Origin: Deltaproteobacteria bacterium
GTDB taxonomy: Bacteria > Bdellovibrionota_F > JAHFAK01
Direction of reading: 5' to 3'
DNA length: 17,985 nt
Assembly (NCBI GenBank): GCA_023250585.1
Contig: JAHFAK010000037.1
Span: 1-17,985, forward strand
Each line of letters opens with the position of its first letter. Within the stretch, counting starts at the first letter, position 1. Positions 249 through 17,985 of the stretch are shown here, in pieces. The notes beneath the pieces are model-generated. The model did not search any database and was not told the DNA's origin. It saw only the letters and a list, made by a program, of their open reading frames with translations. A program made the translations under genes and the position numbers.

Positions 249-267
249 TATGATATACTGTATCATA
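249..267. promoter_or_regulatory. Palindrome overlapping a -10-like box at the start codon of the surface-protein gene
   Basis: TATGATA, a 5-nt spacer (TACTG), then TATCATA form a perfect 7-bp inverted repeat at 249-267. Inside it, TATACT at 254-259 resembles a sigma-70 -10 box, with only a poor -35 candidate (TTCTTT, 231-236, 17-bp spacing). A start about 7 nt after this box would fall on or next to the ATG at 267, giving a leaderless transcript, which would fit the absence of any Shine-Dalgarno sequence there. The palindrome could be a repressor operator. The rest of 173-248 is AT-rich and shows nothing else. Confidence 0.3.
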
Positions 268-2084: not shown

Positions 2085-2089
2085 AATTA

Positions 2090-2779
2090 CTATTGGTTAA
2101 GAACCACGGTATTTTTGAATCTACTAATAGTGGTTAATTGACGAGGATTACCTGCGATAATGGAATCAGAATCATAAAAAGGAATATTTTCTGCTTCCAT
2201 AATGAGTCGTGGTCCATCTCCATCATCATCATCAAGGCACATATAAAATGGAGTGGTAATAGTATAGTCAAATTGATAATTACTATCGCACGTATCTTCA
2301 CCTAAGTAGGTTTGATCAGAAATAATGACTACTGGCTCAGCATAAATCTCTTCACAATCAGGCATTTGAGGAGGATTAGCTGCAAACCATTTACCTAACA
2401 TTACTTTGTACCTTAGTTTTGTAGCACTACTCAAAAGATATTTCATGTTATAAACAGCATAGGTATTCCCACATCCATAAAATTCATGTGTTTCTTCATC
2501 AAATGGCTTATATGGAATGTAATTACTTGCCTTTTTGATAGCCGTTTTTGTCTGGGCATCATCCATAGCAATTAAATAATCACCAGATCCACTACCACCA
2601 ACAGTCATGATAATTGGTATATTGGTATCCATTGAAATATACTCTAGATAGGTATCTTTATATGGATTATTTACATCGGTAAACCCAATTAAACCAGCAC
2701 TGTAATAAGTATATTTTGTGAATGAAAGAATAAATAAAGAAATAATAAGAAGTGAAAATATAGAATATAATCGTCGCAT
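2090..2779 (-). CDS. Secreted or membrane-anchored protein of unknown function
   Basis: A 229-residue product beginning MRRLYSIFSLLIISLFILSF, a basic start followed by a hydrophobic stretch, so a signal peptide or N-terminal anchor. I chose the ATG at 2779 because GGGAGG lies 6 nt upstream (2785-2790 on the plus strand); an in-frame ATG at 2842 would add 21 residues but has no such site and would put a charged stretch before the signal sequence. The mature part has several cysteines (an FYGCGNTY motif, MPDCEE, EDTCDSN, MCLDDDDGDG) and a Gly-Ser run (VGGSGSGDY), suggesting an exported, perhaps disulfide-bonded protein; the DDDDGDG stretch could bind a metal. I recognise no family. It lies 92 bp downstream of the large Ser/Thr kinase gene on the same strand, so it may share that transcript, and it converges on the thrombospondin-repeat gene with a 5-bp gap. 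Confidence 0.7.
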   Translation of the reverse strand: MRRLYSIFSLLIISLFILSFTKYTYYSAGLIGFTDVNNPYKDTYLEYISMDTNIPIIMTVGGSGSGDYLIAMDDAQTKTAIKKASNYIPYKPFDEETHEFYGCGNTYAVYNMKYLLSSATKLRYKVMLGKWFAANPPQMPDCEEIYAEPVVIISDQTYLGEDTCDSNYQFDYTITTPFYMCLDDDDGDGPRLIMEAENIPFYDSDSIIAGNPRQLTTISRFKNTVVLNQ

Positions 2780-2871
2780 ACGTACCTCCCTCACTGTATT
2801 TAAAAACAATACCTTCTTATGTAATTTTTGGAAAAAAGTCAAATTTTTTAGAATGGAGGTTAATGTAAGGA

Positions 2872-5800
2872 TTAATGAATTTTTTTTGAAAAATTTTCTA
2901 CAACAAGGGAGAGATTATTTTGTTTAATGATTACCTGGGCATCCTTGAAAACTATCTGAGATTCCTTGGTTTTATCTTCAAGTGCAAGGATTCTTGATTT
3001 AACCAGACAGGCTTTAGCAATCAGTTCAGGATGCTTTAATTCTTTTGCTCCTTGTAAAGCTTCATTGATAAGAATTGTTGCTTCATCGATAGCGTAATTT
3101 TTCAATAGATAAATAAGGCCTATATGAAGGCAGTTTGATACTATTCCTTCCTTAAAGAACATTGTCTGTGAATGCTCACTTCCTTGTTTAAAATAAGAAA
3201 GCGCTTTATCATAATCATCCTTCTCAAGGTAGATTTCCCCTAAGTTATTAAGATTTAGACATACTCCTAATTTATCTTCTATCTCGGAAGAAATTCGTAA
3301 AGCAAGTTTCGCATACTTGATTGCTTTATCAAATTTTTTATTTTTATACCATAAAGCTGAGACATTCGAAAAGAGAACTGATAGAGAAAGTTTATTATTC
3401 ATTTCTCTACGCAAGAGGTATGATTCCTTAAAAAAACCGAGCGCCTTTTTATAATCGATGTTTCCGTAAATAATTCCTAAATTATTGAGATATTTACTGA
3501 GCAATTGTTTATCGTCTAATTTTCTTACTTCGCTTAACCCCTTTTCAAGAATCTCCAATGCCTTTGTATTATTACGTATCGTTCGATACATATTTGCCTG
3601 CTCATGAAGGAATTCTAGAGTATCGTATTGATTATTTGCGTAACTCGAAATTGTTATAGCTTTATCGATATACTGAAAAGCCTTGTCGTAATCTCCTTTA
3701 ATACTAAAAACTCGCGATATTTGATGAAAAATTTTAGGAATAAAATCTTTGATCTGCTGATCTTCGGAAATCTTTAATGCATCATTGAGACTTCCGAGTG
3801 TATCATCAAGCTTTCCAAGGATTTGACTTACCATTCCTGCTTTGATCTTGAGTTCAATCAGCACAAGAAAACTATCGCCGAGCATGTCTTTATTATTCAT
3901 AAAGCAGTCGATTGCTTCTTTGTAATAGCGATGTGCTTCATTCAAGAGATAGACTGTGTGTGATTCATCCCCAGCCTTGATCAAATAATGAAATGCCTTT
4001 TCAGGATCGTTGGAATTGCTGTAATGATACGCAAGTTCATTCGTATATTCTTCTATTTCACTCATGTATTTCTCAAGGAGATATTCAGCAATTCGTTTAT
4101 GTAATGATTTTCGTATTTCTAAAGGAGTATTCTGATATACAACATCTCTCGCGAGTGCATGCGTTATTTCAAACCCATTAGATGTTTGGTGTATCATTCC
4201 ATGAGACTGCAGCTCGGTCAGTGAACGCTTGAAGCTTTCCCGATCTTTGTTCCAAAGCTCATAAAGAATATTACTGCTAAACTCCTTGCCAATAACAGAT
4301 GCAAGCCTCATAAATTCTTTAGTGGATATTGAGAGCGCATCAACACGAGCGGCAAGTAACGAATACAGTGAATCAGGAATAACACGTGGATCTTTATGTT
4401 TTCCTAACACATATTTGTTATTAAGTCTTTCTAACGATTTGTTATCGAGAAGGCTTTTCGTAAGTTCACCAGCAAACAACGGATTTCCTGAGGATTTTGA
4501 ATAAATTTGAGAAAGGGAATTTTCTTCGATTGGAGAATGAGTAATTGTCTGTAGATAATTTCCAAGCATTTGAATATCAAGCGGTTCAAGCTTAATTGTT
4601 ATTTCTTCGTGATCAATATTCTTCCATGGATAAATAAATTCTTTTCGATACGTTTTAATGAGTAAAACATTAGGAATCGGTCCGTTAGCTAAGATCGAAT
4701 CAAGAGCTTCAATCGATAATTCATCAGCCAAATGAAGATCTTCAAAAATACAGATTGTCTTTTGATTCGCAAATCCAAGCATAATCTTTTTCAATGCAAG
4801 AAACACGAGTATTTTTCTCTTCTCAGGAGGAAGAACATCGAGCGATTCACTTTTATATCTCATAGACATAATGCTTTTGATTGATTCAAGTTCCATGGGT
4901 GTTAATCCAAAGCCTTGCAATTCCGCAATCTGCGATAACGAAATTTCTCGATTACTGTGCTCGCCAGTAAAAATTTGGATAATGAGCTGTTTAAAAACAG
5001 CATAGGGTGTTTTTACATGTTCACGAAATGAACCGACAAAAACTTGAGTATTTAATTCTTGCGTTCTTCTTACAATTTCATGAATAAATGCTGTTTTCCC
5101 AATGCCCGCTTCTCCGGTGATGGTTATTATTTTTCCCGTTTCGATCGTTACATCACGAAGAGATTTCTCAACGAGAGCAAGTTTTTGTGTTCGATTAACA
5201 AAGTGCTCTTTATGATCCTGAGGAAGTACGTCTTTTGATATATCAAGTAAAGTCGGATACTTTTGACCGTTTCGTTCGACAGTTGAAAATTCAAAGAGAC
5301 CCATGCCCATGGATTCAATCAAAGAACCACATAAGATATCTCCAGGTGATGCGATAGCAATGAGCTCTTTAACCTGCTTTTCAGGTCCTTCTGAAATCGT
5401 GAAATTATTGAGATCGTCATTCTTAAAATTAACAATAACATTACCATAGTCTAAGGCAATTCTGAAACCTGCTTTACATGACTGTACATAATTTCTTATT
5501 TCTATTGTTGCATGTAATGTTCGATATATGTCATCTTCTTTATTTTTAGGAAGCCCAAAAACTGCAATGAGTTCTGTCTTCTGGAGTCTATGCACCATTC
5601 CGTTATGCTTTAATACGATACGCATGACCTCTTGAAAAAATCCGAGTATTTCCTCATCAGGACTTTCTACTTGTGGCTCTATGTTTATGTGTAAAACAGC
5701 GATCTTCTTTTGTTCAGTAAACGATAGGGTTTCTGGTGAAAGGATTATGGTCTCAGATTCTTGTGCTCCTTCTTTACTTCCATGAATATCACTCGAAAAT

Positions 5801-6711
5801 AGAGTTTTGATATAGTTTGCTGTCGTAAAATCATTGACCGAATCATTGGAGTTCATAATAAAACGCATCAAATCAGTATAAAGTCCTAATGCATTCTTAT
5901 AGCGATCGTCGGGATTAATTGCCGTTGCCTTTTCAATGATATCTTTTAATTCCTTGGGAATTGTATTCATTAAATTCTTATCAAGCTTTGGATCAACGTG
6001 TGATGTATCGCTTTCATCAAGGATCAGAGCACTTCGATTTCCCATTCTTCCCGGAGGAAGCTTTTTAAACAGTAATTCATAAAGAACAATTCCTGCTGAG
6101 AATATATCAGATTGTGGGGTTAGCTCTTTTCCTAAGAGTTGCTCTGGACTCATGTATGCGTATTTGCCTACAAAGATATCATTGCCAATGGTAAATGCTC
6201 TATTACGAGCATGCGCAATTCCAAAATCAATGATCTTTACTTCTCCATCATACGATACAATAACATTTCTCGGACTAATATCACGATGGACAATTCCCAG
6301 CTTATTTCCGCTTACATCACGAGCAGTATGTAGATAATGAAGTCCTTTGGAAAGCTCAGCAACAAAGTATGAGGCAATCTCTGGTGGAATTGTTGAAACT
6401 CGTTCAATGATTGAGCGCAAATCTTTTCCATGAATAAATTCCATGGCTAAGTAATAGCTATCGGCAATCTGATTAAATTCATAAACATGTGCTATGTTAC
6501 TATGACTAAGGGACACAATGATTTTTGCTTCATCGGCAAGCATGGTAATAAATGATGTGTTGTTGGAGTATTTTGGAAGAATCCGTTTGATTGCACAGAT
6601 CTTTTCAAATCCTTTGCTACCGTAAGACTTTGCTTTGTATACCTCTCCCATGCCTCCATGGGAGATTTTTTCAAGTAACAAATACTTGCCAAATGCGTGT
6701 GGTTTATACAT
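2872..6711 (-). CDS. Ser/Thr protein kinase with cyclase-like, AAA ATPase and TPR domains
   Basis: A 1279-residue cytoplasmic signalling protein with no evident membrane segment. Residues 10 to about 285 are a Hanks-type kinase: Gly-rich loop ISHGGMGEVY (first Gly replaced by Ser17), Lys42 in AIK, catalytic HRD 142-144 with Asn149, DFG 162-164 and an MSPEQ activation-segment end, so likely active. Residues of about 330-490 resemble a class III nucleotide cyclase homology domain (AVLHINIEP, LIAVFGLPKNKEDD, GFRIALDYGNVIV, ASPGDILCGSLIE), but the first metal aspartate is Asn (INI) and the usual GD before LxAVFG is replaced, so it is probably non-catalytic. An AAA/STAND ATPase follows (Walker A GEAGIGKT near 533-540, Walker B CIFEDLH near 652-658), then about 400 residues of tetratricopeptide repeats. 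Fusions of this type act as signal-dependent kinases with a nucleotide-switch and a protein-binding tail. No Shine-Dalgarno is seen before the ATG, but a stop codon lies just upstream in frame. Confidence 0.9.
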   Translation of the reverse strand: MYKPHAFGKYLLLEKISHGGMGEVYKAKSYGSKGFEKICAIKRILPKYSNNTSFITMLADEAKIIVSLSHSNIAHVYEFNQIADSYYLAMEFIHGKDLRSIIERVSTIPPEIASYFVAELSKGLHYLHTARDVSGNKLGIVHRDISPRNVIVSYDGEVKIIDFGIAHARNRAFTIGNDIFVGKYAYMSPEQLLGKELTPQSDIFSAGIVLYELLFKKLPPGRMGNRSALILDESDTSHVDPKLDKNLMNTIPKELKDIIEKATAINPDDRYKNALGLYTDLMRFIMNSNDSVNDFTTANYIKTLFSSDIHGSKEGAQESETIILSPETLSFTEQKKIAVLHINIEPQVESPDEEILGFFQEVMRIVLKHNGMVHRLQKTELIAVFGLPKNKEDDIYRTLHATIEIRNYVQSCKAGFRIALDYGNVIVNFKNDDLNNFTISEGPEKQVKELIAIASPGDILCGSLIESMGMGLFEFSTVERNGQKYPTLLDISKDVLPQDHKEHFVNRTQKLALVEKSLRDVTIETGKIITITGEAGIGKTAFIHEIVRRTQELNTQVFVGSFREHVKTPYAVFKQLIIQIFTGEHSNREISLSQIAELQGFGLTPMELESIKSIMSMRYKSESLDVLPPEKRKILVFLALKKIMLGFANQKTICIFEDLHLADELSIEALDSILANGPIPNVLLIKTYRKEFIYPWKNIDHEEITIKLEPLDIQMLGNYLQTITHSPIEENSLSQIYSKSSGNPLFAGELTKSLLDNKSLERLNNKYVLGKHKDPRVIPDSLYSLLAARVDALSISTKEFMRLASVIGKEFSSNILYELWNKDRESFKRSLTELQSHGMIHQTSNGFEITHALARDVVYQNTPLEIRKSLHKRIAEYLLEKYMSEIEEYTNELAYHYSNSNDPEKAFHYLIKAGDESHTVYLLNEAHRYYKEAIDCFMNNKDMLGDSFLVLIELKIKAGMVSQILGKLDDTLGSLNDALKISEDQQIKDFIPKIFHQISRVFSIKGDYDKAFQYIDKAITISSYANNQYDTLEFLHEQANMYRTIRNNTKALEILEKGLSEVRKLDDKQLLSKYLNNLGIIYGNIDYKKALGFFKESYLLRREMNNKLSLSVLFSNVSALWYKNKKFDKAIKYAKLALRISSEIEDKLGVCLNLNNLGEIYLEKDDYDKALSYFKQGSEHSQTMFFKEGIVSNCLHIGLIYLLKNYAIDEATILINEALQGAKELKHPELIAKACLVKSRILALEDKTKESQIVFKDAQVIIKQNNLSLVVENFSKKIH

Positions 6712-7314: not shown

Positions 7315-7330
7315 AATATTCTAATACTTT

Positions 7331-7346
7331 TGGCATACATTTTGCT
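7331..7346 (+). promoter_or_regulatory. Sigma-54 (-24/-12) promoter of the cassette
   Basis: TGGCATACATTTTGCT fits the consensus TGGCAc-r-N4-TTGCw: GG at 7332-7333 and GC at 7344-7345 with the obligatory 10 bases between. Start of transcription would be near 7357, giving a leader of about 218 nt before the methyltransferase ATG. A sigma-54 response regulator is the last gene of the operon it heads, so autoregulation is likely. Confidence 0.75.
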
Positions 7347-7356
7347 TCTTAAATGA

Positions 7357-7574
7357 GACAAACACAAAAATATGGCAACAAATAATGCTTGCCAAAGATA
7401 CGCACGTGACGTATGAAAAGCATACTATATCTGGGGATGGAGAACATGAATGACAGGATGGAAAAGTAAATTTTCATTTTTTCGGTCGAACCCAGAGTTT
7501 ACCAAACTCTTTCAAATCCAAGCAATTTCAATCTGTGATATTTATCAGTTCTTATCTCAATCGAGGAGTAAAAA
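7357..7574 (+). other. Long 5' leader of the sigma-54 transcript
   Basis: About 218 nt without an intact gene. It contains inverted repeats that could fold in RNA: TGGCAA/TTGCCA (7373-7378 with 7389-7394), ATACG/CGTAT around CACGTGA (7398-7414), and a 7-bp stem AGAGTTT-ACC-AAACTCT (7494-7510). A 7-codon ORF (MNDRMEK, 7446-7469) has GGAG 3 nt upstream, too close to be a good site. No known riboswitch class recognised. The leader ends with GAGGAG (7563-7568), the methyltransferase ribosome-binding site. Confidence 0.35.
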
Positions 7575-8411
7575 ATGAAAACATCATTTGGAAATATGTT
7601 TTCAGACATACACAATGTAGAACTTGAACAATTGATGAGTGATTTTCTTAGACTACAAGTAAATGTATCTTTCAAAAAACATAAAGGCTTTATGATGACA
7701 CATGGTTTAGATACATCAAAACGAGTTCTCGATGTTGGAACGGGAAATGGATATTTTTGTGGTAAGTTAGCCCAACTCAGTCCTCATATGCAATTCATTG
7801 GAATTGATTTCAAAAAAGAAATGATAGATGAAGCAATGAAAACTCAAGCAACTCAAGGTTTATCAAACGTTCAATGGCTGCATGAAGATATTACTAACCT
7901 TTCTCCACAGTTTTTAAGTAAGAAGAAAGAATATTTTGATGGAGTGATTTTTCGCTTTGTTTTAGTCCATATAAAAGAAGTTGAGTCAGTTTTAAAAACA
8001 ACGCGGCAATTATTAAAACCTAACGGGATGGTATGGTTTTTTAGTATAGAGCTTGATTATATGAATTCAGAACCACAATATCCTGAATTTGAACTATACA
8101 AAAGAGCAACAGAAAAGCTCTATAGAACATTCGGAATTAATGGACATCTTGGAGGCAGATTGCCTGCTATGCTTAAAAAAGCTGGGTATAGAGATATATA
8201 TCTTGAAAAGGATTCTATGAGCAAAGAAGAAATTGGGCTCGAAAATTATCAGCGTTTTATGCTTTCTGAAGCGGCATTATTTCATCGCTATGCTCCAAAT
8301 TCCATAACAAAAAAAGAGTTAGAAGTGTTAACTCGTTTTGCTACAGAGATAGTACCGAAGCCACATTACCATGCTACCTACGGAAATGTTATGATCAGTG
8401 CAAGACAGTAA
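7575..8411 (+). CDS. Class I SAM-dependent methyltransferase
   Basis: A 278-residue cytoplasmic enzyme expected to transfer a methyl group from S-adenosylmethionine; the acceptor is unknown. The Rossmann-type SAM-binding core is clear: motif I VLDVGTGNG (51-59), the acidic end of strand 2 (GIDF, D78) that holds the ribose, EDIT (104-107), FDGVIFRFVLVHI (121-133) and the post-motif LLKPNG (148-151 region). The pattern is that of the Methyltransf_11/25 group, which acts mostly on small molecules, so protein or rRNA targets are less likely. The N-terminal 40 residues (SFGNMFSDIHNVE...) are helical and probably cap the active site. The ATG at 7575 has GAGGAG 6 nt upstream. First gene behind the sigma-54 promoter; its position with a hydrolase, exporter and acyltransferase suggests a tailoring step in a small-molecule pathway. 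Confidence 0.85.
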   Translation: MKTSFGNMFSDIHNVELEQLMSDFLRLQVNVSFKKHKGFMMTHGLDTSKRVLDVGTGNGYFCGKLAQLSPHMQFIGIDFKKEMIDEAMKTQATQGLSNVQWLHEDITNLSPQFLSKKKEYFDGVIFRFVLVHIKEVESVLKTTRQLLKPNGMVWFFSIELDYMNSEPQYPEFELYKRATEKLYRTFGINGHLGGRLPAMLKKAGYRDIYLEKDSMSKEEIGLENYQRFMLSEAALFHRYAPNSITKKELEVLTRFATEIVPKPHYHATYGNVMISARQ

Positions 8412-8415
8412 TAGA

Positions 8416-8508
8416 ATGAAAGTTTTATTAATACAACCTACGCTGGAGTTAATTGAAATTATTGATTTTGAGATCGAAGAAAATAACTTTTTTGAACTCA
8501 TGAGGTAG
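8416..8508 (+). CDS. Small ORF, 30 residues, start like a B12-binding radical-SAM protein
   Basis: Begins 4 nt after the methyltransferase stop, without a clear ribosome-binding site of its own (translation would rely on coupling). The product starts MKVLLIQPTLEL and continues acidic (EIEENNFFEL). MKVLLIxPP is the usual first strand of cobalamin-binding radical-SAM enzymes, so this could be the 5' stump of such a gene; it could also be a genuine small peptide or chance. No sequence downstream continues the family in any frame that I can see. Confidence 0.3.
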   Translation: MKVLLIQPTLELIEIIDFEIEENNFFELMR

Positions 8509-8532
8509 CAATGATTTCGGCAGTAAAGTGAG

Positions 8533-8542
8533 AGGAGGTGAT
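8533..8542 (+). promoter_or_regulatory. Full-length Shine-Dalgarno of the 12-residue ORF
   Basis: AGGAGGTGAT is a ten-base match to the complement of the 16S rRNA 3' end and the strongest ribosome-binding site in the window. AGGAGG ends 8 nt before the ATG at 8547, an optimal spacing. That such a site serves only a 12-codon ORF argues the ORF is translated on purpose. Confidence 0.7.
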
Positions 8543-8546
8543 AAGT

Positions 8547-8585
8547 ATGTTAGAAGGTACACCATATCAAACCATTATTGAGTAA
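8547..8585 (+). CDS. 12-residue micro-ORF MLEGTPYQTIIE: leader peptide or signal peptide candidate
   Basis: A 13-codon ORF (with TAA) encodes MLEGTPYQTIIE, driven by a near-perfect Shine-Dalgarno site. It has no secretion signal. It stands in the gap between the methyltransferase and hydrolase genes, and a 13-bp hairpin starts 37 nt after its stop, so it may be a translated leader that controls folding of the downstream RNA. Since the operon also encodes a peptide-type binding protein with a histidine kinase, it could instead be a small peptide product or pheromone precursor. Both ideas are inference; translation itself is suggested only by the ribosome-binding site. Confidence 0.5.
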   Translation: MLEGTPYQTIIE

Positions 8586-8622
8586 GAGTGACTCATTAAT
8601 CTATGTTTTTTAACAATTTCTA

Positions 8623-8655
8623 AGTGGACGCAATTATCTTTGAATTGCGTCCACT
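8623..8655 (+). other. 13-bp perfect hairpin in the methyltransferase-hydrolase gap
   Basis: AGTGGACGCAATT (8623-8635), loop ATCTTTG, and AATTGCGTCCACT (8643-8655) pair without mismatch. No T-run follows (AGATCTTGG), so it is not a classical intrinsic terminator. It could be an attenuator or RNA-processing/stability stem between operon parts, or a protein-binding dyad. A smaller palindrome GAGTGACTC (8586-8594) directly follows the micro-ORF stop. The remaining 8656-8750 shows nothing I can name. Confidence 0.6.
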
Positions 8656-8750
8656 AGATCTTGGTACAAGGGTATCAGGTTTTAGATATAAGTGAAAATT
8701 TTAATCTTAAGGCATTAATATTAGAAACATAAGAAGCAGGAATAGTTCAT

Positions 8751-9857
8751 ATGCGAAAAGATACGTTAAACAAAATATGGGTGAGCATATCGGTATTCTC
8801 AATTTGTTTATTCTTTTGTTATTACCAAGTTATGGCATCAGCAGATAATAAAATTGAAGGAAGAGAAAACGATATGGTCATACAATCATTTGATGGAGTT
8901 GCTTTGAGTGGAGTACTAACGTTACCAGCGAACGATAAAGTTCGTGGAATAATTATTATGGTACATGGAAGCTTTGTGCAAACACGCGATGGAGATCTTG
9001 ATGGAAATCAGACATGGATGTTTCCTTATGGGGTTCCTAAACGTGGGCTTTTTCGTGATATAACAAATGAATTCATAACAATAGGATTTGGAACCTATAG
9101 ATATGATAAAAGAGCAAGTGGAAAGAGTGGTGGTGATTATCAAGAAACGGATATGGTGACCCTAGTCAAAGATGTTGTTTCAATTTTTAATGTAATAAAG
9201 GCCCAATTTCCTAACATAGATATTGGTCTATTAGGCCAGAGTGAGGGTTCTCTTACGGTGTTGAAGGCATGGGAACTTGGTGCACGAGCTAATTTTATTC
9301 AGTTACAGGGTCCTGCTTTAGAGCCTTTCGATCTTACTCTTCACTATCAGAAATCTCATGCTGCTGCACCATTTTTAGCAGAAAATCTTGAAGGGCCCTT
9401 ATCACAGAAGTTTCCTTACTTAGCAGCTTTTTATCATGCTCTCTATTTTGAGGATATGCTTGAGAAAATGAGGCGTGGTAATGAAAAATACTATATGCTT
9501 GATTGGAATGGTTATAAATATCGTACCAATCTAAAAAAATATAGAGAATACCTTTGGAATGGCCTTGAAATGCTCAAGGCAGTTACGGTGCCTGTATACT
9601 TAATTATCGGAAGTAAAGATACAAATGTTCGTCCAGGAGTAGCCCAGGAAATTATCGAAAAACAGAAGATAGGAGAATATCAAAATGTTACTGTTCGAAT
9701 TATCGAAGGACTTGAACATAGCTTTCGAAAAGTATCTCCTGGTGACAATTTTGTAGATGTAATGGCCAAACCTATTTCTCAAAAGTATTTTGAAGTATTA
9801 CGTAGTTTCTATAAACAACAAGGTATTTATAATAGTAATTGTAAAAAGATTTTTTAG
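8751..9857 (+). CDS. Secreted alpha/beta-hydrolase
   Basis: A 368-residue hydrolase, probably periplasmic or membrane-attached. Residues 8-28 are hydrophobic and followed by VMASADNK, a plausible signal-peptidase site. The fold is clear: MVHGS oxyanion segment, nucleophile elbow GQSEGS with Ser164, acid Asp290 in GSKDTNVRP and His323 in GLEHSF, forming a complete Ser-Asp-His triad. DKRASGKSGG after strand 4 is typical of the serine-aminopeptidase-like/dienelactone-like group, which includes esterases and peptidases; the substrate cannot be told. A lid region lies between about residues 180 and 270. AGGA lies about 13 nt before the ATG, a weak ribosome-binding site, so expression may depend on upstream translation or structure. 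The MATE-family gene follows after 19 bp. Possible role: outside processing or detoxification of the exported product, or cleavage of an incoming signal. Confidence 0.85.
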   Translation: MRKDTLNKIWVSISVFSICLFFCYYQVMASADNKIEGRENDMVIQSFDGVALSGVLTLPANDKVRGIIIMVHGSFVQTRDGDLDGNQTWMFPYGVPKRGLFRDITNEFITIGFGTYRYDKRASGKSGGDYQETDMVTLVKDVVSIFNVIKAQFPNIDIGLLGQSEGSLTVLKAWELGARANFIQLQGPALEPFDLTLHYQKSHAAAPFLAENLEGPLSQKFPYLAAFYHALYFEDMLEKMRRGNEKYYMLDWNGYKYRTNLKKYREYLWNGLEMLKAVTVPVYLIIGSKDTNVRPGVAQEIIEKQKIGEYQNVTVRIIEGLEHSFRKVSPGDNFVDVMAKPISQKYFEVLRSFYKQQGIYNSNCKKIF

Positions 9858-9876
9858 TTAGAAATAAGGAAAATCT

Positions 9877-11250
9877 ATGAAGTTAGTAGCTTTTATTCAG
9901 AATAGAAAAATAAGAAGGTTATTTGAATTTCCACAATCACTTTATTCTCACTTTTTACTATTAATTCCACTCATAGCATCACAGTTTTTTCAGCGTATGT
10001 TTCATATTATTGATAATCGCTTTGTTGGAATACTTGGTAGTGATGCCCTCCTTATTCATAACGTCCAGTATAATTTCATTCTCCTTGGTCAACTCATGAG
10101 TGTTGCTACTACTACGAGTATGCTTGTCTTCTGGAAAAGAAAAGAAGCTCAGGGGAAACAGGGTTCATTGTTTTTAATTCATTTTTTATCAGCTCTTATA
10201 CTTAGTTTTTTATGCGCCGTAGTTTTTTTCGTTTTAAGAAGTCACCTGGCAGAACATTTTGAAATTTCATCATATTTATTACAGCTCACAAAACAATATT
10301 TTATTATCGGTATCATAAATATGGTTCTTCAGTGTATATATGGTAGTATTGAAGGCTCACTTATTGCAACCGGAAAGACAAAATATTGCATGTTCTTCTC
10401 AGCACTATTAGTAGCTGGAAACCTAGTATTGGATTTTATCTCTATCCAGCTATTTTTTACTCAAGAAAATCGGGGAATCGGAGCACCTCTTTTTTCTATA
10501 GGTTTATCGACAACATTTTTATTATTGCTCGTTATATCTATTGGGATTGTAATCATTAAAAGAGAAGCAGATGGATGGAAAAGATTTCCAATTAAAGATA
10601 TATTACCTGTTTGGTCGAGTGAAATTGGTATCGCGTTTGTACGTTCTTTACTTCCATTAATTTATATCTACCAACTAGCATTAATACATGCATCTAGGGG
10701 TTTCATTGTCAGTTATCAGTTGACGTTGCATTTAGCATATCTCTTCTGTTTACCAGTTGGAGCTGGTTTACAAATTGCCGTTAGTAATGCTTCAAAAGCT
10801 CAATCAGAAGAAAAAGATAATTCTCAATGGTTTAACGTGTTTTTTTATACTGCTCTCCTACCTACTTTTTTCTTGCTTCTTTTTGGTGCCTTAATACCTT
10901 TGCCTTTGATTAAAATTCTTTATAACTATGAGGTCCCTGCAGATCATTTTACATTCATTCCAGTTTACTTTTATGCATGTATTGTAGGACAGATAGGTCA
11001 TGTATTTTCAATCCCAATTCGCGCTCGAAAGAGAAATCTTGTGATGACTAAAAATTTTCTCATATCAGAAGCAGGAGTACTCATAGGAATTACACAGATT
11101 TTGATTTGGTTAAAGCAAGCAACCCCAGCAACAATTTGTTGGGCAACAATGGCTTTTACCGCTACATATCTATTTTTGAATAGTTATTCTCTGAGAAAAA
11201 TATTGAAAAATGAACAACAACTTCGATTTATTGAAAGTGCTTCTGTATGA
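9877..11250 (+). CDS. MATE/MOP-superfamily multidrug-type exporter
   Basis: A 457-residue polytopic membrane protein with about twelve hydrophobic segments, the normal length and count for MATE transporters. The N-terminus ([43 protein letters not shown]) has the family pattern of a first helix followed by a conserved D-x-x-(F/M)-(V/I)-G-x-x-G loop, here [17 protein letters not shown] proteins extrude organic cations or small molecules by Na+ or H+ antiport. AAGGAAAA stands about 7 nt before the ATG, and the stop overlaps the next start (ATGA at 11247-11250). The neighbours (methyltransferase, hydrolase, acyltransferase) suggest it exports the product of this cluster or protects against a toxic one. 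A Wzx-type lipid-linked sugar flippase of the same superfamily is possible given the acyltransferase, but no glycosyltransferase is present. Confidence 0.85.
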
Positions 11251-12071
11251 ATATAAGAATACTATTAAAGTCCTTATCACATACAATCTTCAATCTGAGA
11301 AAAATGTTATGGAGATCTTCGGTAAGTTCGTTAACATTTAATTTACAGTATCACTTTCGTTCATTAGTAGGATTTATAAGAGGATTATTATGTTTACTTC
11401 GAGGGTATGTAATTTTTGATGGGGTATGGAGACCATTAATTATTGGCCCTGGGGCTCAATATTTATTAGAAGCTCAGAGTGTTATTGTAATGAGAAGTAA
11501 GCAGCAGGAAATAATCCATAGGGAGTTTGAATACTCATTATTCAAGAATGCATCGTATCTTGGTTTTATTCCTTATTGGAAGTTTCTAAATCCTCCTGCT
11601 CACACTAATACTATTTTTCGTATACAACAAGGAGCTAAATTAATCGTTTCAGAGAATACATTAATTTGCAAAGGTTCGTACATTAGCATTTGGCCAAATA
11701 AGGACCTTGATATAGGAAAGAGCGTATATATTGGTCCTAATGTAACAATTAATACCAAATGTGGAATGAGGATTGGAGATAATACAATGATCGCACATGG
11801 ATCGACCATTTGGGACTATGATGGACATCCAATATATAACGAAAATTTAGAGGGCCCTTCTGATTCTTATGGAGGTGAAAGCAGCCCAATTGTTATAGAA
11901 CAAGATGTATGGATAGGGTATGAGGTCTCGATCTTAAAAGGCGTTCATATAGGCCAAGGAGCAATTGTGGGTGCTAAATCATGTGTAACTAATGATGTCC
12001 CTCCATACTCAATTGTAGCAGGGAACCCTGCAAAGATTATTAAAAGGAATGTGACATGGCGAAAATATTAA
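11247..12071 (+). CDS. Hexapeptide-repeat (left-handed beta-helix) acyltransferase
   Basis: A 274-residue enzyme whose residues from about 120 to 265 form a left-handed parallel beta-helix of hexapeptide repeats ([56 protein letters not shown]), ending [16 protein letters not shown], the signature of the NodL/LacA/CatB/WbbJ acetyltransferases. The catalytic histidine is expected to be His194 in WDYDGHPI. These trimeric enzymes transfer an acetyl or other acyl group from CoA to a hydroxyl or amino group of sugars or antibiotics. The N-terminal 110 residues are less conserved. Its start ATG overlaps the exporter's stop (ATGA), and it overlaps the next gene by 16 nt, so translation is coupled. 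Role: an O- or N-acylation of the cluster's small molecule or of a surface sugar; not resolvable from sequence. Confidence 0.85.
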
Positions 12072-13513
12072 GCACAGTTGTACTCGTATATAGTATATTA
12101 GTTTGCTTACATCTTTATGGTAAAGAACTAAAGATTCCACTTCACGCAAGTATGATTTCTCTTGATCCAACTGCTGTTCAGGATCAATCATCATTATGGG
12201 TCTCGCGACAAATAAACTGCCAGCTAGTAAGACTTACAAATGGAAATATTTTTAAAGAAGCTGCCAAGAGTATCCAATACGATGGTCCTCTTAAGATAAT
12301 TATAGAATTGAAGCATGATATACAATTCCATGATGGAACACAAATCAAAGCAGATGATGTAATTGCATCTTTTAATTACCTTAAAAAATCGAGGGAAGTT
12401 TTTCGTTCAATATTCCAATGGATTAATTCAATAGAAAAAGTATCCGAATCATCGTTTGTTTTTAAATTAAAAGAAGATATTCCACAGTTTCTTGATATTT
12501 TATCGTCACCTAACTATGCAATCTTTAAAAAAAGTTTTATTGAAAAAGCAAAAAAGAATAATAAGTATTGGGAAAAACCTTTGGGTTGTGGTAGTTACAG
12601 GGTTAGTCATTATAACAGTAAACCAAAAAGTGTACAACTAACACCGCTTAAAGAAGGTCTTCCCATAGTTTTTTATTTCAACAAAGAAAACCAAATTAGT
12701 AGAGAGGAATTAAATAGATATGATATTGTTAGTCTTCAAATAGAAGGAGAAAGTAAACAAAGTACTATGAACAATGCTTTTCGTATTGAAAAGATATTTG
12801 ATCCATATCATATTTTTTTAGGCCTTAATATTCTTAAGAAAAGATGGCAAAATAGAGAAGATAGATGTAAATTTTTTGCCAATCTAAATCCACAAATAGT
12901 TATTGATGAATATGTTGATTCTGCTGAATATGCAAACGATATCCTTCCAAGAGGAATTCTTGGTTATTCTAAACATATAAATTACAAAAAAATAATAGAA
13001 GAGATCGCAACAAAATCTAAGTATTCATTTGAAAATAAAAATGAACCTTTTTGTCTGACTTATTTATCAGTATCAATTCCTAAATTATATCGAGATGTAT
13101 ATACAAAAATGGTAACTTCTGTATATCAAAATATCGAAATAAAAATTCTTGATGATCCAAAACATTTCGGAAAAGATTTTCAGAAATTCGACTGTGATGC
13201 AATTATAATGGGATTAAAATCCAATACACTCGATGGATATGATTACTTATTACTTTATTCAGAAGAAGCTGCAAATATTTTTGGATTTCAAGATAAAGAA
13301 ACGATTCGTGTTATTAAAGAAAGCCAAAATATTGGAGACAGAAGCAAAAGAGCCTATGCCTATCAAAAGATAACAAGTAAAATTAGGAATGAATGTCTAA
13401 CTTTTCCTATTTTAACTATACCAATGAAAAATGTGTATATAAGAAATAATCTAATTACCCCTGAATTTGGGACCGTTCCGCTGAATGAATACTATTTAGG
13501 TTGGGTACGATGA
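12056..13513 (+). CDS. Family-5 (peptide/nickel-type) solute-binding protein, likely sensor component
   Basis: A 485-residue exported protein: an N-terminal hydrophobic segment (about 4-20) precedes LYGKELKI, a plausible signal peptidase I site (ILVC is not a good lipobox). The family-5 signature is seen at about 95-113 ([19 protein letters not shown]), and an LDP near 36-38 matches the common ...LDPxxxxxxx start of these proteins; length is normal. Family members bind oligopeptides, nickel complexes or other small ligands outside the membrane. No ABC permease or ATPase gene is near. Instead the stop codon overlaps the ATG of a histidine kinase (ATGA, 13510-13513), so it is probably the ligand-capturing partner of that kinase. 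AAGGA lies 7 nt before the ATG, and the first 16 bases overlap the acyltransferase gene. Confidence 0.85.
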
Positions 13514-16287
13514 ACATAAAAGCATATTCAGAAAAGTCTTTAAGAAATATTTTTAATAGATCAATAATAGCAGTATCTCTACTGACAGTGACTATCTCCT
13601 TAATGGTCACAATGTATATTACAAACAAAAACAGCCAACAGGAACGTTTAAATTATTACAAAAATATCCACAATACAGTAAATGAATTGATGAGATCAGC
13701 ACTTACCATGTCAGATTATGGAGCAATACAAAAAGTTCTCGGATCAGTCTCAAATAAAGACGAAATCAGTACAGTAATAAGTTCGGAAGGAGATATCTTG
13801 TTATCTGATTATAGTAATTATGGACTAGTAGCAAGTCTAAAAAAATTTATAAGGTCTGAGAATAATTGTAAAGAACTACCTGAAAGCCTTAAATACAAAG
13901 AAAAAACTTATAAGATATACTGTCATGAGATGAAAATGCAAAACAGATTAAAAGGAAAAGATGCTACAGTAGGATTACTCCTTACTTTAGTTCCAGGATG
14001 GCATATAAATTCCCCTTCATATGTATTTGTCTATCTTATTAGTATTTCATTATTGTCGGTGGTCATTTTAGTAAGCTTTTTGCGGTTGGTAGTCAGGAAA
14101 AAGATATTAATGCCTATTGAGAGAGTAACGAGAGAAATTACCAAGATGTCTGAAATGCCTTTAGAGAAAAAGTATTTAGAGATAGAAAATCTTAAAGAAG
14201 CTAATGAAATTGTTCTTTTGGTAAAGTCATTCGTTGAGTTGTTTGAAAATTTAAAAAAACATCAAGAACAAGCTGAGATCAATACAAAATTCATTTCCAT
14301 CGGCCACACGACCGCAATCCTTGCTCATGATGTCCGCAAGCCGTTTACAAAGCTGAAAGCTATGCTTAATTATTTTGATGATTATAAAAACTCATCCGGA
14401 CAACTTGAAAATGCAAAACAGGAGATTGATAAATCAATTAAGCACGTTGAAAGTATGATCAACGATATCATGGATTTTTCACGTGAAGTGAAATTGGAAA
14501 CAAAACCAGAAGCATTAGTTGATATGTTTGATTTTTCAATTCGGGAAGTAGCACAGCAGGAAGTGGTTCATATCTCGTCGTTCGTATCTCGTGAAGAGGA
14601 AACAGAAATTGCTATTCGATTTGAGTACAATTTCCAGCATACACATCAGCCATTAGCGGATAACGAAAGGCTCGTGCGGGTATTTTCAAATATTATTGGA
14701 AATGGAATCGAAGCAATTACTGTAATTGGAAAAAAGAATGAGGGAACTATTGCTATAACAACACAAGATGTGATTAAGAATGATACATCTTTTATTGAAA
14801 TAACAATTGCAAATGATGGACCTCCTATTCCCGAAGAAGACATTCCAAAATTATTTGAATCCTTTTTCACCAAAGGAAAGCAAAAAGGCACAGGATTGGG
14901 ATTAGCTTCAGCTCAAAAGCTTATCAATCTTCACGGTGGAGAAATTGTTGGAAGAAATAAAAACACTAAAGACGGTGTTGAATTTATCATGACAGTTCCT
15001 GCTTCAGATGAAAAAGAAGTAATCGATATAAGCAAACTTCCAAAGAATAATAGAGAAGCTGCGTTTGTTACATTAAAGAAAGATACCTATGAACTCGATA
15101 CGATTATTGAAACACTTAAAGATCAACACTTTAACATTCTCCTTTTGGAAGATGAATCACTCTATAGACAAGCAGTAAAGAGCTTAATCAATAAACATGA
15201 AATCCTTAAAAACATAATTATCCTCTATGATGCTCATACCGTAGATGAAGCATTATCGATTATTGAAAAAGAAAATATCACTCACGCAATAGTGGATATT
15301 GATCTCGGTGAAATGCAGACTGGCTTTGATTTTCTTGAAATTCTTCACCGAGCACTGAAAACCGAGAACCGATCACCGCTCTGCATGGTTCATTCAAACC
15401 GACATTTAGATGAGTTTAAACAAAAAGCTTTTTCATTAGGAGCGAAGGCCTTTGTTCCCAAGCCGCTTGCTCTTGAACATCTTGTGGACTTTTTAGATTC
15501 TGGGGAAGAAGAAAAATTGAAAACTAAAGATCAATCCCTAGAGACAAGAAATCAGAAACAAGAGCCGCGCATTCTCGTAATTGATGATGATCCAATGCTT
15601 TTAAACGGAAATACAAAAACACTGGAACGTTACTTTAAGACAAGGGCAATTTATAAAGCCATGAATCCTGAAGAAGCGTTTGAGCTAATAAAGAACACTC
15701 AGGTTGATTATATTTTCTGTGACATTTATTTCGATAATAGTACGTATACGGGGTATGACTTTGTGAAAGAAGTACGAAAAGATAATCCAGATATTCCTAT
15801 CTATCTTGTTTCATCAGAATCAAGGTGCATAGGAGAATCTAAGGCATTGGAATGTGGAGCAAATGGATTTATTGAGCAAATTCTTAATGAAACCAAGATT
15901 GAGAATGCATTAAGCGCCGAACCAATCAAGATCGAGAGCCCGACACCCCAACCTGAAAACCTCGTATTAGCAAAGATATTTCATGATCTTAAAAAACCTC
16001 ATGTACGCTATAGTTATTTAGCCCAAAAGATAAAAAACTGTTCGGATAACGAATTTGAGAAATTACATAATGAACTTATCATGAATTTTGAATACGTTCG
16101 CAATTTACTCGATATTTTACAAAGATATCTTCACGAAAACAAAATTATGATTAATGATCCAGAGTATCGTGCCGAATTCGAGAAAGAATTTGAACATTTT
16201 ATACAAGAGGAAGAGGCAATTACATCTATGCCTCAAGAAGAAGGAGGAAGTTATGTCAAAGCAAAAAATGAACGTCTTAGTAGTTGA
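13510..16287 (+). CDS. Hybrid histidine kinase with two receivers and a C-terminal DHp-like module
   Basis: A 925-residue membrane sensor kinase. TM1 is at about 18-37 and TM2 at about 171-194, enclosing a roughly 130-residue extracytoplasmic domain with cysteines at 120 and 138. A HAMP-like linker and coiled coil lead to a DHp domain with His273 (HDVRKPF), then the ATPase domain with an N-box (SNIIGNGIEA) and GTGLGLA at about 460-466. Receiver 1 (about 540-660) has an aspartate near 596 and the conserved KP; receiver 2 (about 687-800) has Asp738 but EQ in place of the usual Lys-Pro. The C-terminus (about 815-870) carries a second H-box-like FHDLKKPH with His825 and helices, but no ATPase. 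The ATG at 13510 overlaps the binding protein stop; a TTG 9 nt upstream is less likely. The 3' end overlaps the response regulator by 35 bp. Likely detects binding protein-ligand complexes and signals to the downstream regulator. Confidence 0.9.
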   Translation: MNIKAYSEKSLRNIFNRSIIAVSLLTVTISLMVTMYITNKNSQQERLNYYKNIHNTVNELMRSALTMSDYGAIQKVLGSVSNKDEISTVISSEGDILLSDYSNYGLVASLKKFIRSENNCKELPESLKYKEKTYKIYCHEMKMQNRLKGKDATVGLLLTLVPGWHINSPSYVFVYLISISLLSVVILVSFLRLVVRKKILMPIERVTREITKMSEMPLEKKYLEIENLKEANEIVLLVKSFVELFENLKKHQEQAEINTKFISIGHTTAILAHDVRKPFTKLKAMLNYFDDYKNSSGQLENAKQEIDKSIKHVESMINDIMDFSREVKLETKPEALVDMFDFSIREVAQQEVVHISSFVSREEETEIAIRFEYNFQHTHQPLADNERLVRVFSNIIGNGIEAITVIGKKNEGTIAITTQDVIKNDTSFIEITIANDGPPIPEEDIPKLFESFFTKGKQKGTGLGLASAQKLINLHGGEIVGRNKNTKDGVEFIMTVPASDEKEVIDISKLPKNNREAAFVTLKKDTYELDTIIETLKDQHFNILLLEDESLYRQAVKSLINKHEILKNIIILYDAHTVDEALSIIEKENITHAIVDIDLGEMQTGFDFLEILHRALKTENRSPLCMVHSNRHLDEFKQKAFSLGAKAFVPKPLALEHLVDFLDSGEEEKLKTKDQSLETRNQKQEPRILVIDDDPMLLNGNTKTLERYFKTRAIYKAMNPEEAFELIKNTQVDYIFCDIYFDNSTYTGYDFVKEVRKDNPDIPIYLVSSESRCIGESKALECGANGFIEQILNETKIENALSAEPIKIESPTPQPENLVLAKIFHDLKKPHVRYSYLAQKIKNCSDNEFEKLHNELIMNFEYVRNLLDILQRYLHENKIMINDPEYRAEFEKEFEHFIQEEEAITSMPQEEGGSYVKAKNERLSS

Positions 16288-17728
16288 TGACAAGATCAAT
16301 GAGCGTAAGGCGATAGTTGAGATTTTAGAATACGAAAGGCATGCGCTTATCGGAAGTATTTACGAAGCAGGAAGCGAAAAGGAAACACTCGATATACTTT
16401 CGAATAGTATCGACATTGTATTTTTAGATATATGGTTTTTTGCCAAAACCGAAGGTCTTCAACTGCTTATTGAAATAAAAAAACACAACCCTCTCATCGA
16501 AATCATTATGGTAACCAGTGATGGTTCACCGGAAATTATTAGAAAAGTAGTAGATCATGATGTGTACAACTATGTAAAAAAGCCGTTTAAGACGGATGAT
16601 ATTTTAGTTGCCTTTGAAATAGCACGGAGTTTGCGTGAAAAAAATTTAAAAAAAGAATTACAGGATGCATATATCGCAAAGACGAATGAAGCAATTGATG
16701 AAATTGTGGGTATAAGCCCCATTATGAATTCAATTAAGAAAAGCATACGCAATGCGGGAAGGTGTAAGGATATTACTATACTTATTCGAGGAGAATCGGG
16801 AACCGGTAAGGAGCTTGTTGCACGAGCACTCCATAAGGAGTATGGAGACCCAAAACGTCCCTTTGTTGCGGTAAACTGTGGAGCAATCTCAAAGGAATTA
16901 GTTGAAAGCGAACTCTTTGGGCATGAACAGGGTGCATTTACGGGAGCAAAAGATAAGAAACTTGGACTTTTTGAATTAGCGGATAATGGAGACATATTTT
17001 TAGATGAAGTAGCCGAACTTCCTCTAGAATCACAGGCAAAACTCTTACGAGTTCTTGATGGGAGTGGCTTTAGACGCGTGGGTGGTACGGTAACAATGCA
17101 TCCGCATTTTCGCATAATGTGTGCAACGAATCGTAATTTGGAAAATTTGGTAAGGGAAGGAAAATTTAGAGAAGATCTCTATCATCGCATATGCGTGTAT
17201 GAATTAGAACTTCCTCCTTTGCGTGAACGTAAAGAAGATATAATTCCGCTTACAGAAAGTATAGTAACAAAAATAAGCATTCGTTCGCATACTCCTAAAA
17301 AAGTATGTTCAGAAGAGGTCATTGATTATTTTTTGAATCAATCGTGGCCAGGAAATGTGCGAAGTCTTAAGAATATTTTAGAGATTATGGTTATTAATGC
17401 GGAGGGAAAAGAGTTACAATTACGGCATCTGCCGGGAAACAAAATAGAACGCCTTGAACAAAAAACACTCTCGACTTCAGGGAATGACCTCTCGTTCGAT
17501 GATGCGTGCGAATCCTTATATGAAGAATCTCTGTCACGCGGAGTGTATGATGTCATTGAACATGCGGAAAAATACATTATGCAAAAAGCGATTCATAATA
17601 ATAAAAATTTTGCTCAAGCAGCTACCTCACTTAGAACTTCTCGTGTGAATTTCCATAATAAAATGAAAAAATATGGGCTGCATGAGAAGAATGAACGTAT
17701 CCTTACGAAAGAATCGAGTAGTAAATAG
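16253..17728 (+). CDS. Sigma-54-dependent NtrC-type response regulator
   Basis: A 491-residue cytoplasmic activator. The receiver (1 to about 125) has DD at 12-13, the phosphoacceptor Asp59 (FLDIW), MVTSD and KKP. The AAA+ domain follows: Walker A GESGTGKE (about 180-187), the sigma-54-contacting GAFTGA (about 227-232), Walker B DIFLDE (about 246-251) and the sensor/arginine-finger region. The C-terminal Fis-type helix-turn-helix is at about 435-480, weaker than usual (FAQAATSLRTSRVNFHNKMKKYGL). All functional motifs are intact, so it should open sigma-54 holoenzyme promoters when phosphorylated. The ATG at 16253 has AGGAGG 5 nt upstream and lies within the 3' end of the kinase gene. An ORF extension to 16154 has no good ribosome-binding site. 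It is the likely partner of the hybrid kinase and of the two sigma-54 promoters in this window. Confidence 0.9.
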   Translation: MSKQKMNVLVVDDKINERKAIVEILEYERHALIGSIYEAGSEKETLDILSNSIDIVFLDIWFFAKTEGLQLLIEIKKHNPLIEIIMVTSDGSPEIIRKVVDHDVYNYVKKPFKTDDILVAFEIARSLREKNLKKELQDAYIAKTNEAIDEIVGISPIMNSIKKSIRNAGRCKDITILIRGESGTGKELVARALHKEYGDPKRPFVAVNCGAISKELVESELFGHEQGAFTGAKDKKLGLFELADNGDIFLDEVAELPLESQAKLLRVLDGSGFRRVGGTVTMHPHFRIMCATNRNLENLVREGKFREDLYHRICVYELELPPLRERKEDIIPLTESIVTKISIRSHTPKKVCSEEVIDYFLNQSWPGNVRSLKNILEIMVINAEGKELQLRHLPGNKIERLEQKTLSTSGNDLSFDDACESLYEESLSRGVYDVIEHAEKYIMQKAIHNNKNFAQAATSLRTSRVNFHNKMKKYGLHEKNERILTKESSSK

Positions 17729-17825: not shown

Positions 17826-17864
17826 ATCCAGTAATTATAAGGCCTGTATACTTTCCAAACAATG

Positions 17865-17880
17865 TGGCATGGATCTTGCT
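17865..17880 (+). promoter_or_regulatory. Second sigma-54 (-24/-12) promoter
   Basis: TGGCATGGATCTTGCT matches the consensus with GG at 17866-17867 and GC at 17878-17879, exactly 10 bases apart. It would start transcription near 17890, about 38 nt before the ATG at 17928, and so drives the gene at the right edge. It differs from the first promoter only in the variable part (both TGGCAT...TTGCT). Confidence 0.75.
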
Positions 17881-17927: not shown

Positions 17928-17985
17928 ATGAAGCGAGCATTTATCACGGAACATGGGCCATTGGTACGAAGGCTATCAGAGTTAC
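17928..17985 (+). CDS. N-terminal fragment of a gene cut by the right edge, unknown
   Basis: ATG at 17928 has AGGAGG (17915-17920) 7 nt upstream, and the open frame runs to the window end, giving MKRAFITEHGPLVRRLSEL. Nineteen residues are too few to assign a family, and no signal peptide is evident. It lies about 38 nt after the predicted start of the second sigma-54 promoter, so it is probably a target of the same regulator and may belong to the same functional system. Confidence 0.6.
   Translation, partial: MKRAFITEHGPLVRRLSEL

Follow-up and report, generated by a model that had tools for sequence, protein, structure and literature searches.

Does the run of genes behind a sigma-54 promoter in this DNA form one circuit that makes, exports and senses a signal of its own, and is such a circuit known from other bacteria? 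The window, by which we mean the whole stretch of 17,985 nucleotides, is contig C91 of a 2.24-Mb genome in 164 contigs that is 96.7% complete. The original prediction had named seven genes, and all of them were found, in the same direction and with Pfam support for every assignment (Table 1). The last one indeed encodes an intact sigma-54 activator, with GAFTGA at residue 227 as well as the Walker A motif GESGTGKE. Two details were corrected: a 42-aa ORF ahead of the methyltransferase (MTase) gene had been overlooked, and the activator start at 16154 was replaced by 16253 (MSKQKMNVLVVDDK, SD GGAGGAAG), which is most likely the start used. The family-5 solute-binding protein (SBP5) has an N-terminal hydrophobic segment, and its best solved relative is the oligopeptide-binding AppA (1xoc, 5e-11). 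The MATE protein would work in the export direction, judging from its family. We see about an even chance that the run is one self-inducing, sigma-54-controlled sensor cassette with swappable cargo, of a secreted-signal type. An anti-phage defence system was considered and set aside: the PADLOC similarities are generic only (kinase, AAA+ and methyltransferase), and no system-specific PADLOC components were found among the window proteins.

Table 1 Features of the window and the evidence for each.
Feature	Position	Strand	Evidence
Sigma-54 (-24/-12) promoter TTGGCATACATTTTGC	7330..7345	+	GG (7332-7333)-N10-GC (7344-7345), exact
Conserved leader motif CTTGCCAAA-N-CTGGGG, before first start codon	7388..7436	+	recurrence in own genome
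Candidate 42-aa small ORF MTGWKSKFSFFRSNPEFTKLFQIQAISICDIYQFLSQSRSKK	7450..7578	+	starts 13 nt after CTGGGG, likewise in C14 and C5b; TGA overlaps MTase ATG
Class I SAM methyltransferase	7575..8411	+	PF13847 7.5e-21
Tiny ORF MKVLLIQPTLELIEIIDFEIEENNFFELMR (weak)	8416..8508	+	open frame only, without homolog
Tiny ORF MLEGTPYQTIIE (weak)	8547..8585	+	strong SD, gagaggaggtgataagt upstream
Strong hairpin in the MTase-hydrolase gap, perhaps an attenuator or terminator	8619..8658		fold of 8601-8700 = -30.4 kcal/mol, no U tract
Secreted alpha/beta hydrolase (S33-like)	8751..9857	+	PF12146 (Hydrolase_4) 1.4e-12; N-terminal hydrophobic segment
MATE-family transporter, probable exporter	9877..11250	+	PF01554 (MatE) 1.2e-8, above cut-off
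Left-handed-beta-helix acyltransferase	11247..12071	+	PF00132 (hexapeptide transferase) 3.3e-11; WbbJ-like under equivalog cut-off
Family-5 solute-binding protein (SBP5), putative sensor	12056..13513	+	PF00496 (SBP_bac_5) 6.4e-19; no ABC partner genes
Hybrid histidine kinase: TM, periplasmic domain, TM, HisKA, HATPase, REC, REC	13501..16287	+	Pfam
Sigma-54 activator: REC-AAA+(GAFTGA)-C-terminal HTH-like region	16253..17728	+	PF00072, PF00158 (Sigma54_activat)
Second sigma-54 site, preceding the multi-copy MKRAFITEHGPLVRR gene (17928 to window end)	17864..17879	+	exact TGGCAYN5TTGC core

As had been proposed, a -24/-12 consensus with GG-N10-GC spacing stands ahead of the run, and the match is exact. 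A first-order simulation of both strands of the window gives an expectation of 0.05 exact TGGCAYN5TTGC sites, against 2 present, at 7331 and 17865; the second core (17865-17879) lies 3' of the activator and heads a gene that is cut by the window end. RpoN is encoded in the same genome (PF04552, 1e-62). Genome-wide, 55 exact TTGGCAYN5TTGC sites were listed in 2.24 Mb, against about 1.4 expected (an estimate from base composition), and with at least 11 strong activator-domain matches in this genome, these 55 sites make cross-talk possible. Sigma-54 use is unusually wide here, and several exact sites precede unrelated genes, such as apparent lipoproteins. The leader motif between the promoter and the first start codon is present in five copies in this genome (window, C14, two in C5, and C102), each before the first start codon of a cassette operon, and the backwards control gave 0. 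A known riboswitch was rejected as an explanation of this leader, with no Rfam match at the gathering score and only chance-level matches below it. A structured RNA was rejected as well; the fold z-scores (+0.2, -0.8, +0.8, -1.5 and -0.2) are non-significant and the consensus has almost no covariation, so no structure is claimed.

From the hydrolase through the activator, neighbouring genes overlap or lie 19 nt apart; the SBP5 and kinase genes overlap by 13 nt, and the kinase and activator genes overlap too. Between the MTase and hydrolase genes, a gap of 340 nt (8411-8751) holds the two tiny ORFs and the strong hairpin, which may split the run, and one transcript for all seven genes is therefore only putative. 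The gap and hairpin favour a reading without any circuit, in which the neighbours are expressed independently and the promoter serves the small ORF and the MTase alone, as do the numerous sigma-54 sites that drive unrelated genes in this genome. We regard this reading as very improbable, since the genes from hydrolase to activator almost touch or overlap, the same part set occurs at seven loci, and its SBP-kinase-enzyme/exporter part returns in other genera.

These further loci were reached from the window kinase, which led to a paralog on contig C14, and from activator-domain matches, which led to the others; domains were assigned by Pfam. The home genome was covered in part (searches and the stretches around matches), so the seven cassettes are a lower bound and more may exist. 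At least seven are present: the window (MTase, hydrolase, MATE, acyltransferase, SBP5, hybrid kinase, activator), C14 (PfkB kinase, class II aldolase, SBP1, hybrid kinase, activator), C75 (radical SAM, 46-aa peptide, MFS, hybrid kinase, activator, with no SBP), C64 (activator, MTase, SDR, Peripla_BP_6, and a kinase cut by the contig end), C153 (activator cut by the contig start, MFS, radical SAM, two SBP5, 46-aa peptide, kinase), C102 (activator, EamA/Peripla_BP_6 fusion, kinase) and C5 (activator, Thr aldolase-like protein of the Beta_elim_lyase family, MTase, ABC_sub_bind at the cut-off, kinase). No exporter was seen in C5, C64 or C14. An eighth locus, C101, has a family-3-like SBP (judged from sequence) adjoining a kinase, without an activator. 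Six of the seven cassettes carry an SBP, drawn from four Pfam families, and a sigma-54 site precedes the cargo in all seven, exact in six and with a mismatch in C5 (TTGGTATGAAGTTTGC); in C64 it lies just 5' of the likely start codon. At the genome density, 0.02 exact sites would be expected in the upstream stretches examined.

These results support the view that the architecture is not a chance neighbourhood. The predicted order of sigma-54 promoter, enzymes, exporter, SBP, kinase and activator thus stands as a recurrent architecture, in at least seven home cassettes, but the co-conservation of the exact enzyme set with the sensors does not. In 98 sampled genomes, neither the SBP nor the hydrolase had a clear ortholog, the paralogous cassettes carry other enzymes and SBPs, and a kinase scan of the genome contigs for the exact gene set gave a 23% match at most. 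In G001, a class relative, the activator loci examined held no cassette. The exact gene set of the window is unique, whereas the architecture recurs.

The cargo of the siblings brings in the main rival explanation, that the cassettes are inducible utilisation or detoxification operons and form a sensory rather than a signalling toolkit. Here, the SBP would detect a compound from the surroundings, such as a sugar, an amino acid, a peptide or a toxin, and the kinase and activator would induce the enzymes and the transporter by which it is used or removed. This explanation is strongest for C14, whose PfkB, class II aldolase and family-1 SBP read like sugar catabolism and count against a signal. 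The Beta_elim_lyase-family enzyme of C5 also fits, and MATE, hydrolase and acyltransferase could serve detoxification. Furthermore, nutrient-sensing SBP-kinase-regulator three-component systems are known, for example CuaD in Ruminiclostridium, in which an SBP likewise acts as a sensor beside a two-component system (PMC10384115). That nutrient system, however, is tied to an ABC importer, whereas the cassettes combine biosynthesis/export cargo with sigma-54 control. No ABC permease or ATPase is present in the window, and no uptake permease or ATPase was recognised beside the SBPs of the sibling loci, unlike several generic SBP5 matches in other genomes, where Opp-type genes come next. For the cassettes as a whole we consider utilisation or detoxification unlikely, and two further observations given below, on sensor swapping and on synthesis genes, speak against it. 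Contig C145 (L058) carries what appears as the ordinary ABC-linked counterpart of the cassettes, namely Opp-type ABC transporter genes and an SBP5 gene, divergent from a kinase and a sigma-54 activator.

A comparison of the cassettes shows which parts are kept and which are exchanged. Activators are 45% (C91/C14), 55% (C102/C5) and 65% (C153/C5) identical, and the kinases are 51% identical over 755 residues for C91/C14 and 60% over 547 for C153/C5, where the alignment starts only past the sensor region. Kinase cores within subfamilies are thus conserved at 50-60%, and sensor domains and SBPs diverge. When the kinases were split at the sensor boundary, the sensor end was 26% and the transmitter 52% identical in C91/C14, as against 18% and 61% in C153/C5. 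By BLAST, the SBPs are mutually unrelated, except for the C153 tandem pair and two distant Peripla_BP_6 proteins. Between C75 and C153 the radical SAM proteins share 53% identity, although the kinases belong to different subfamilies; together with the MTases of C5 and the window, which are 28% identical, this indicates that cargo has moved between regulatory cores.

A direct case of exchange comes from another genome, G034, where the DNA of the loci L141 and L142 matches at 97% for the first 406 nt. An unrelated middle of 5 kb follows, after which a stretch of 1612 nt that starts within the kinase gene is 89% identical and a stretch of 1299 nt running through a MATE gene is 87% identical. Their kinase proteins rise from about 20% to about 80-90% identity near residue 200 (sensor end 22%, transmitter 87%). 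This looks like an exchange or diversification of all the parts that would determine specificity, with retention of the output half. Histidine kinases in general often combine divergent sensor ends with conserved cores; what is unusual in the cassettes is the size of the identity step and, in G034, the common DNA flanks. Such extreme sensor swapping over near-identical transmitters is typical of polymorphic signal systems and argues against utilisation or detoxification operons.

The entry point to other genomes was a weak SBP5 match with a kinase of the C101/C102/C5/C153 subfamily directly after it. A query with this kinase turned up four copies in G034, three in G101 and one each in G098 and G349; of 386 sampled genomes, 4 have a match at E <= 1e-60, and the window's own is one of these 4. 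G034, G101, G098 and G349 are related to the source genome at no closer level than 'same domain' and belong to four different families, and G034, G098 and G101 may be one phylum. As parts in the unannotated loci were labelled by Pfam or by phmmer searches against our own set of cassette proteins, a part called absent is one that was not recognised. In G034, L121 has an exact sigma-54 core (4240) followed by an aminotransferase, an uncharacterised protein, MFS, another uncharacterised protein, SBP5 and a histidine kinase (HK); L142 has SBP5, MFS and HK, then MATE; L141 has SBP5 and HK followed by MATE, and its alpha/beta hydrolase and MFS genes lie on the opposite strand; and L143 consists of a lone HK gene preceded by an exact sigma-54 site. 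Within about 35 kb, G101 holds the three sets SBP5-YcaO-HK, MFS-SBP5-HK and LanM-like-SBP5-HK, G098 holds SBP5-YcaO-HK with an activator about 2 kb 5' of the SBP5 gene, and G349 holds LanM-like-SBP5-HK with an MFS-like protein just below the cut-off.

Relatives in this kinase subfamily therefore mostly adjoin SBP5 genes, and the YcaO-SBP5-HK and LanM-like-SBP5-HK sets each occur in two families. The SBP5 proteins of G098 and G101 are 51% identical and their YcaO proteins 45%; for G101 and G349 the values are 29% (SBP5) and 34% (LanM-like). Exporter-type genes occur in at least eight loci, counting the home and other genomes. The kinase tree gathers 13 SBP-linked kinases and that of G034 L143 into a single starred group, to which C91/C14, C75 and C145 do not belong. 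Because the window kinase lies outside this group, the link from the window to other genera consists of the architecture, the SBP family and the hydrolase, which is 48% identical to the one adjoining the G098 YcaO-SBP5-HK cassette, and not of the kinase subfamily. No activator was found within reach in L121, G101 or G349, and none of the cassettes in G101, G098 and G349 is preceded by an exact sigma-54 site; activator linkage is common only in the home genome and G098.

Small peptides accompany several of the modifying enzymes. Each of the two radical-SAM cassettes has an SD-preceded 46-aa ORF, MKKRIILGILSVVRMIPVRAVSLRAQIVEAHIVSRETHMLSELSVW in C75 and MKKRMKMLLILVLTLIPIGSVALKAQIIAAGINENGRPVSFDEESG in C153, which align with a score of 69 (the best of 2000 shuffles reached 41) and are mutual best matches among 1340 SD-preceded small ORFs in the stretches examined. 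Both peptides appear to have a Sec-type start and then a short tail; in C153 the mature peptide may begin at Gln26. A comparable 49-aa ORF lies immediately 5' of SBP5 in G098. Possible pre-peptides beside a modifying enzyme are the homologous 46-aa pair, this 49-aa ORF and, in the window, the 42-aa ORF as an unproven candidate precursor; no homologs of the small ORFs of the window, G098, G101 or G349 were found in the loci examined. No RiPP maturase was recognised in the window, although such maturases occur in sibling cassettes. A peptide ligand for the window is further weakened, as far as the sequence goes, by the lack of a certain precursor and by the range of its SBP family, since family-5 SBPs also bind many solutes other than peptides. 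The repeated radical SAM, YcaO and LanM-like enzymes with small secreted-type peptides are synthesis genes, which disagrees with utilisation or detoxification.

The same enzymes could instead point to autoinduced bacteriocin or antibiotic loci, where the product is primarily a weapon, its production is self-induced as for nisin, and signalling controls production only. RiPP-type maturases (radical SAM/SPASM, YcaO and LanM-like DUF4135) with exporters and sensors would suit such loci, numerous copies with differing cargo fit strain competition, and nisin is sensed by its kinase NisK (PMC5266694). Against this, no immunity gene was recognised, the C75 and C153 peptides are short with a Sec-like N-terminus, and SBPs from several families would be unusual for bacteriocin autoinduction; we therefore hold weapon loci to be quite improbable.

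Under the self-inducing cassette reading, the MTase, secreted hydrolase and acyltransferase would produce a small molecule or modified peptide, or complete its synthesis, and the MATE protein would export it. The product would bind SBP5 outside the inner membrane, and the loaded SBP5 would contact the hybrid kinase, the product of the next gene, at its periplasmic domain. From the kinase, phosphate would then move to the receiver of the sigma-54 activator, which would open the promoter at 7330 and raise expression of the whole cassette in a positive feedback loop. We infer from the sequence that the ligand comes from the cassette enzymes, that the SBP signals to the kinase, that the activator receives the phosphate and that the loop feeds back. 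Observed are the parts and their order, the promoter match, RpoN, the recurrence, the conserved kinase cores with divergent sensor ends, and the mostly unrelated SBPs. The repeated association of cassettes with peptide-modifying enzymes and exporters fits the secreted-metabolite or signal reading put forward originally; the original interpretation is supported in part, with the exact enzyme set not kept alongside the sensors.

Known systems resemble the cassettes in part. LuxO is a sigma-54 activator. In Vibrio, periplasmic LuxP acts with the hybrid kinase LuxQ, and phosphate passes to the response regulator LuxO (PMC5394107). Like LuxPQ-LuxU-LuxO, which responds to autoinducer-2, the window appears to pair an SBP gene with a hybrid kinase (HisKA, HATPase and two RECs) and a sigma-54 activator. 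However, the window activator scores 298.9 bits with the LuxO model (NCBIfam) against a cut-off of 800 and is not an equivalog, the window proteins include no HPt domain (LuxU-like) and no LuxS, the cassette SBPs span four Pfam families, and synthesis and export genes share the cassette. Moreover, the ligand turns the kinase off in Vibrio (PMC5394107), unlike in the proposed cassette circuit. By analogy, the cassettes would work like LuxPQ-LuxO and yet not be members of that system.

A second parallel is the ComQXPA pherotypes of Bacillus, in which the kinase C-terminus is conserved. The modifying enzyme, small peptide, kinase and regulator are adjacent there (PMC4008528), and the locus is strikingly polymorphic (PMC4408185). 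The cassettes similarly have polymorphic sensor ends, conserved transmitters and, in G034, a swapped middle. In contrast to ComQXPA, no ComQ isoprenyl transferase or ComX domain is found among the window proteins, and the cassettes sense via a soluble binding protein, use a sigma-54 activator and coexist as paralogs in one genome. The streptococcal Rgg/SHP-RaS-RiPP systems are self-inducing and involve radical SAM enzymes, short peptides and transporters (PMC13361665). The radical-SAM cassettes are similar in this respect, although the defining parts are not homologous; in the Rgg/SHP systems, Opp brings the pheromone back into the cell, where it binds Rgg in the cytoplasm, whereas the cassettes have a periplasmic SBP and a kinase beside the enzymes, with no importer recognised. 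In the open-licence literature searched, no paper was recognisable as describing the cassette architecture.

More tentatively, and with doubt prevailing, we propose that the cassettes are an undescribed class of cell-cell signalling, in which exchangeable cargo makes modified peptides or other molecules that are exported and sensed via periplasmic SBPs by fast-diverging kinases driving sigma-54 activators. They would provide several parallel private channels per genome, diversified by swaps of the middle between conserved ends. The kinase-centred versions elsewhere point to a little-known family of chemical signalling systems that induce themselves and probably often use peptides. If true, poorly studied bacteria would hold a modular family of self-inducing signal loci that join RiPP-type or small-molecule synthesis, SBP sensing and sigma-54 activation in one unit. 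Each cassette would then couple a biosynthetic pathway to a candidate sensor of its own product, and the swapping of sensor ends and cargo over a near-fixed transmitter would be a natural experiment on the evolution of signal specificity.

The surroundings of the cassettes are rich in repeats. A multi-copy MKRAFITEHG gene (MKRAFITEHGPLVRRLSELRKLKGSTITIHIYGESG...), probably encoding a receiver-less sigma-54 activator by its sequence, begins at 17928-17985 of the window and on C14, C54, C64 and C75, that is, beside four cassettes and on C54; it has its own sigma-54 site, and its start occurs in five near-identical copies, with contigs breaking inside the gene. At positions 1-171 the window carries the 3' end of an activator-like gene with a Fis-type HTH, which is repeated on C63, C148 and C23; the copies are about 94% identical, lie mainly at contig ends and may be the other end of this multi-copy gene. 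A TSP3-repeat protein, a 250-aa probable lipoprotein and a Ser/Thr kinase-AAA-TPR protein (267-6711 in the window) are duplicated beside several cassettes (C102, C75 and C5); between the window and C102, the thrombospondin-3-repeat protein is 51% and the Ser/Thr kinase protein 63% identical. MITE-like palindromic repeats of about 110-160 bp are abundant on many contigs, for example C68, C6, C7, C75 and C87. Finally, contig C23 (L083:440-8207) carries a biosynthetic operon with a class II tRNA-synthetase-like protein, an MTase, an S66 peptidase, an MFS transporter and two ATP-grasp proteins, which ends near the activator-tail repeat.
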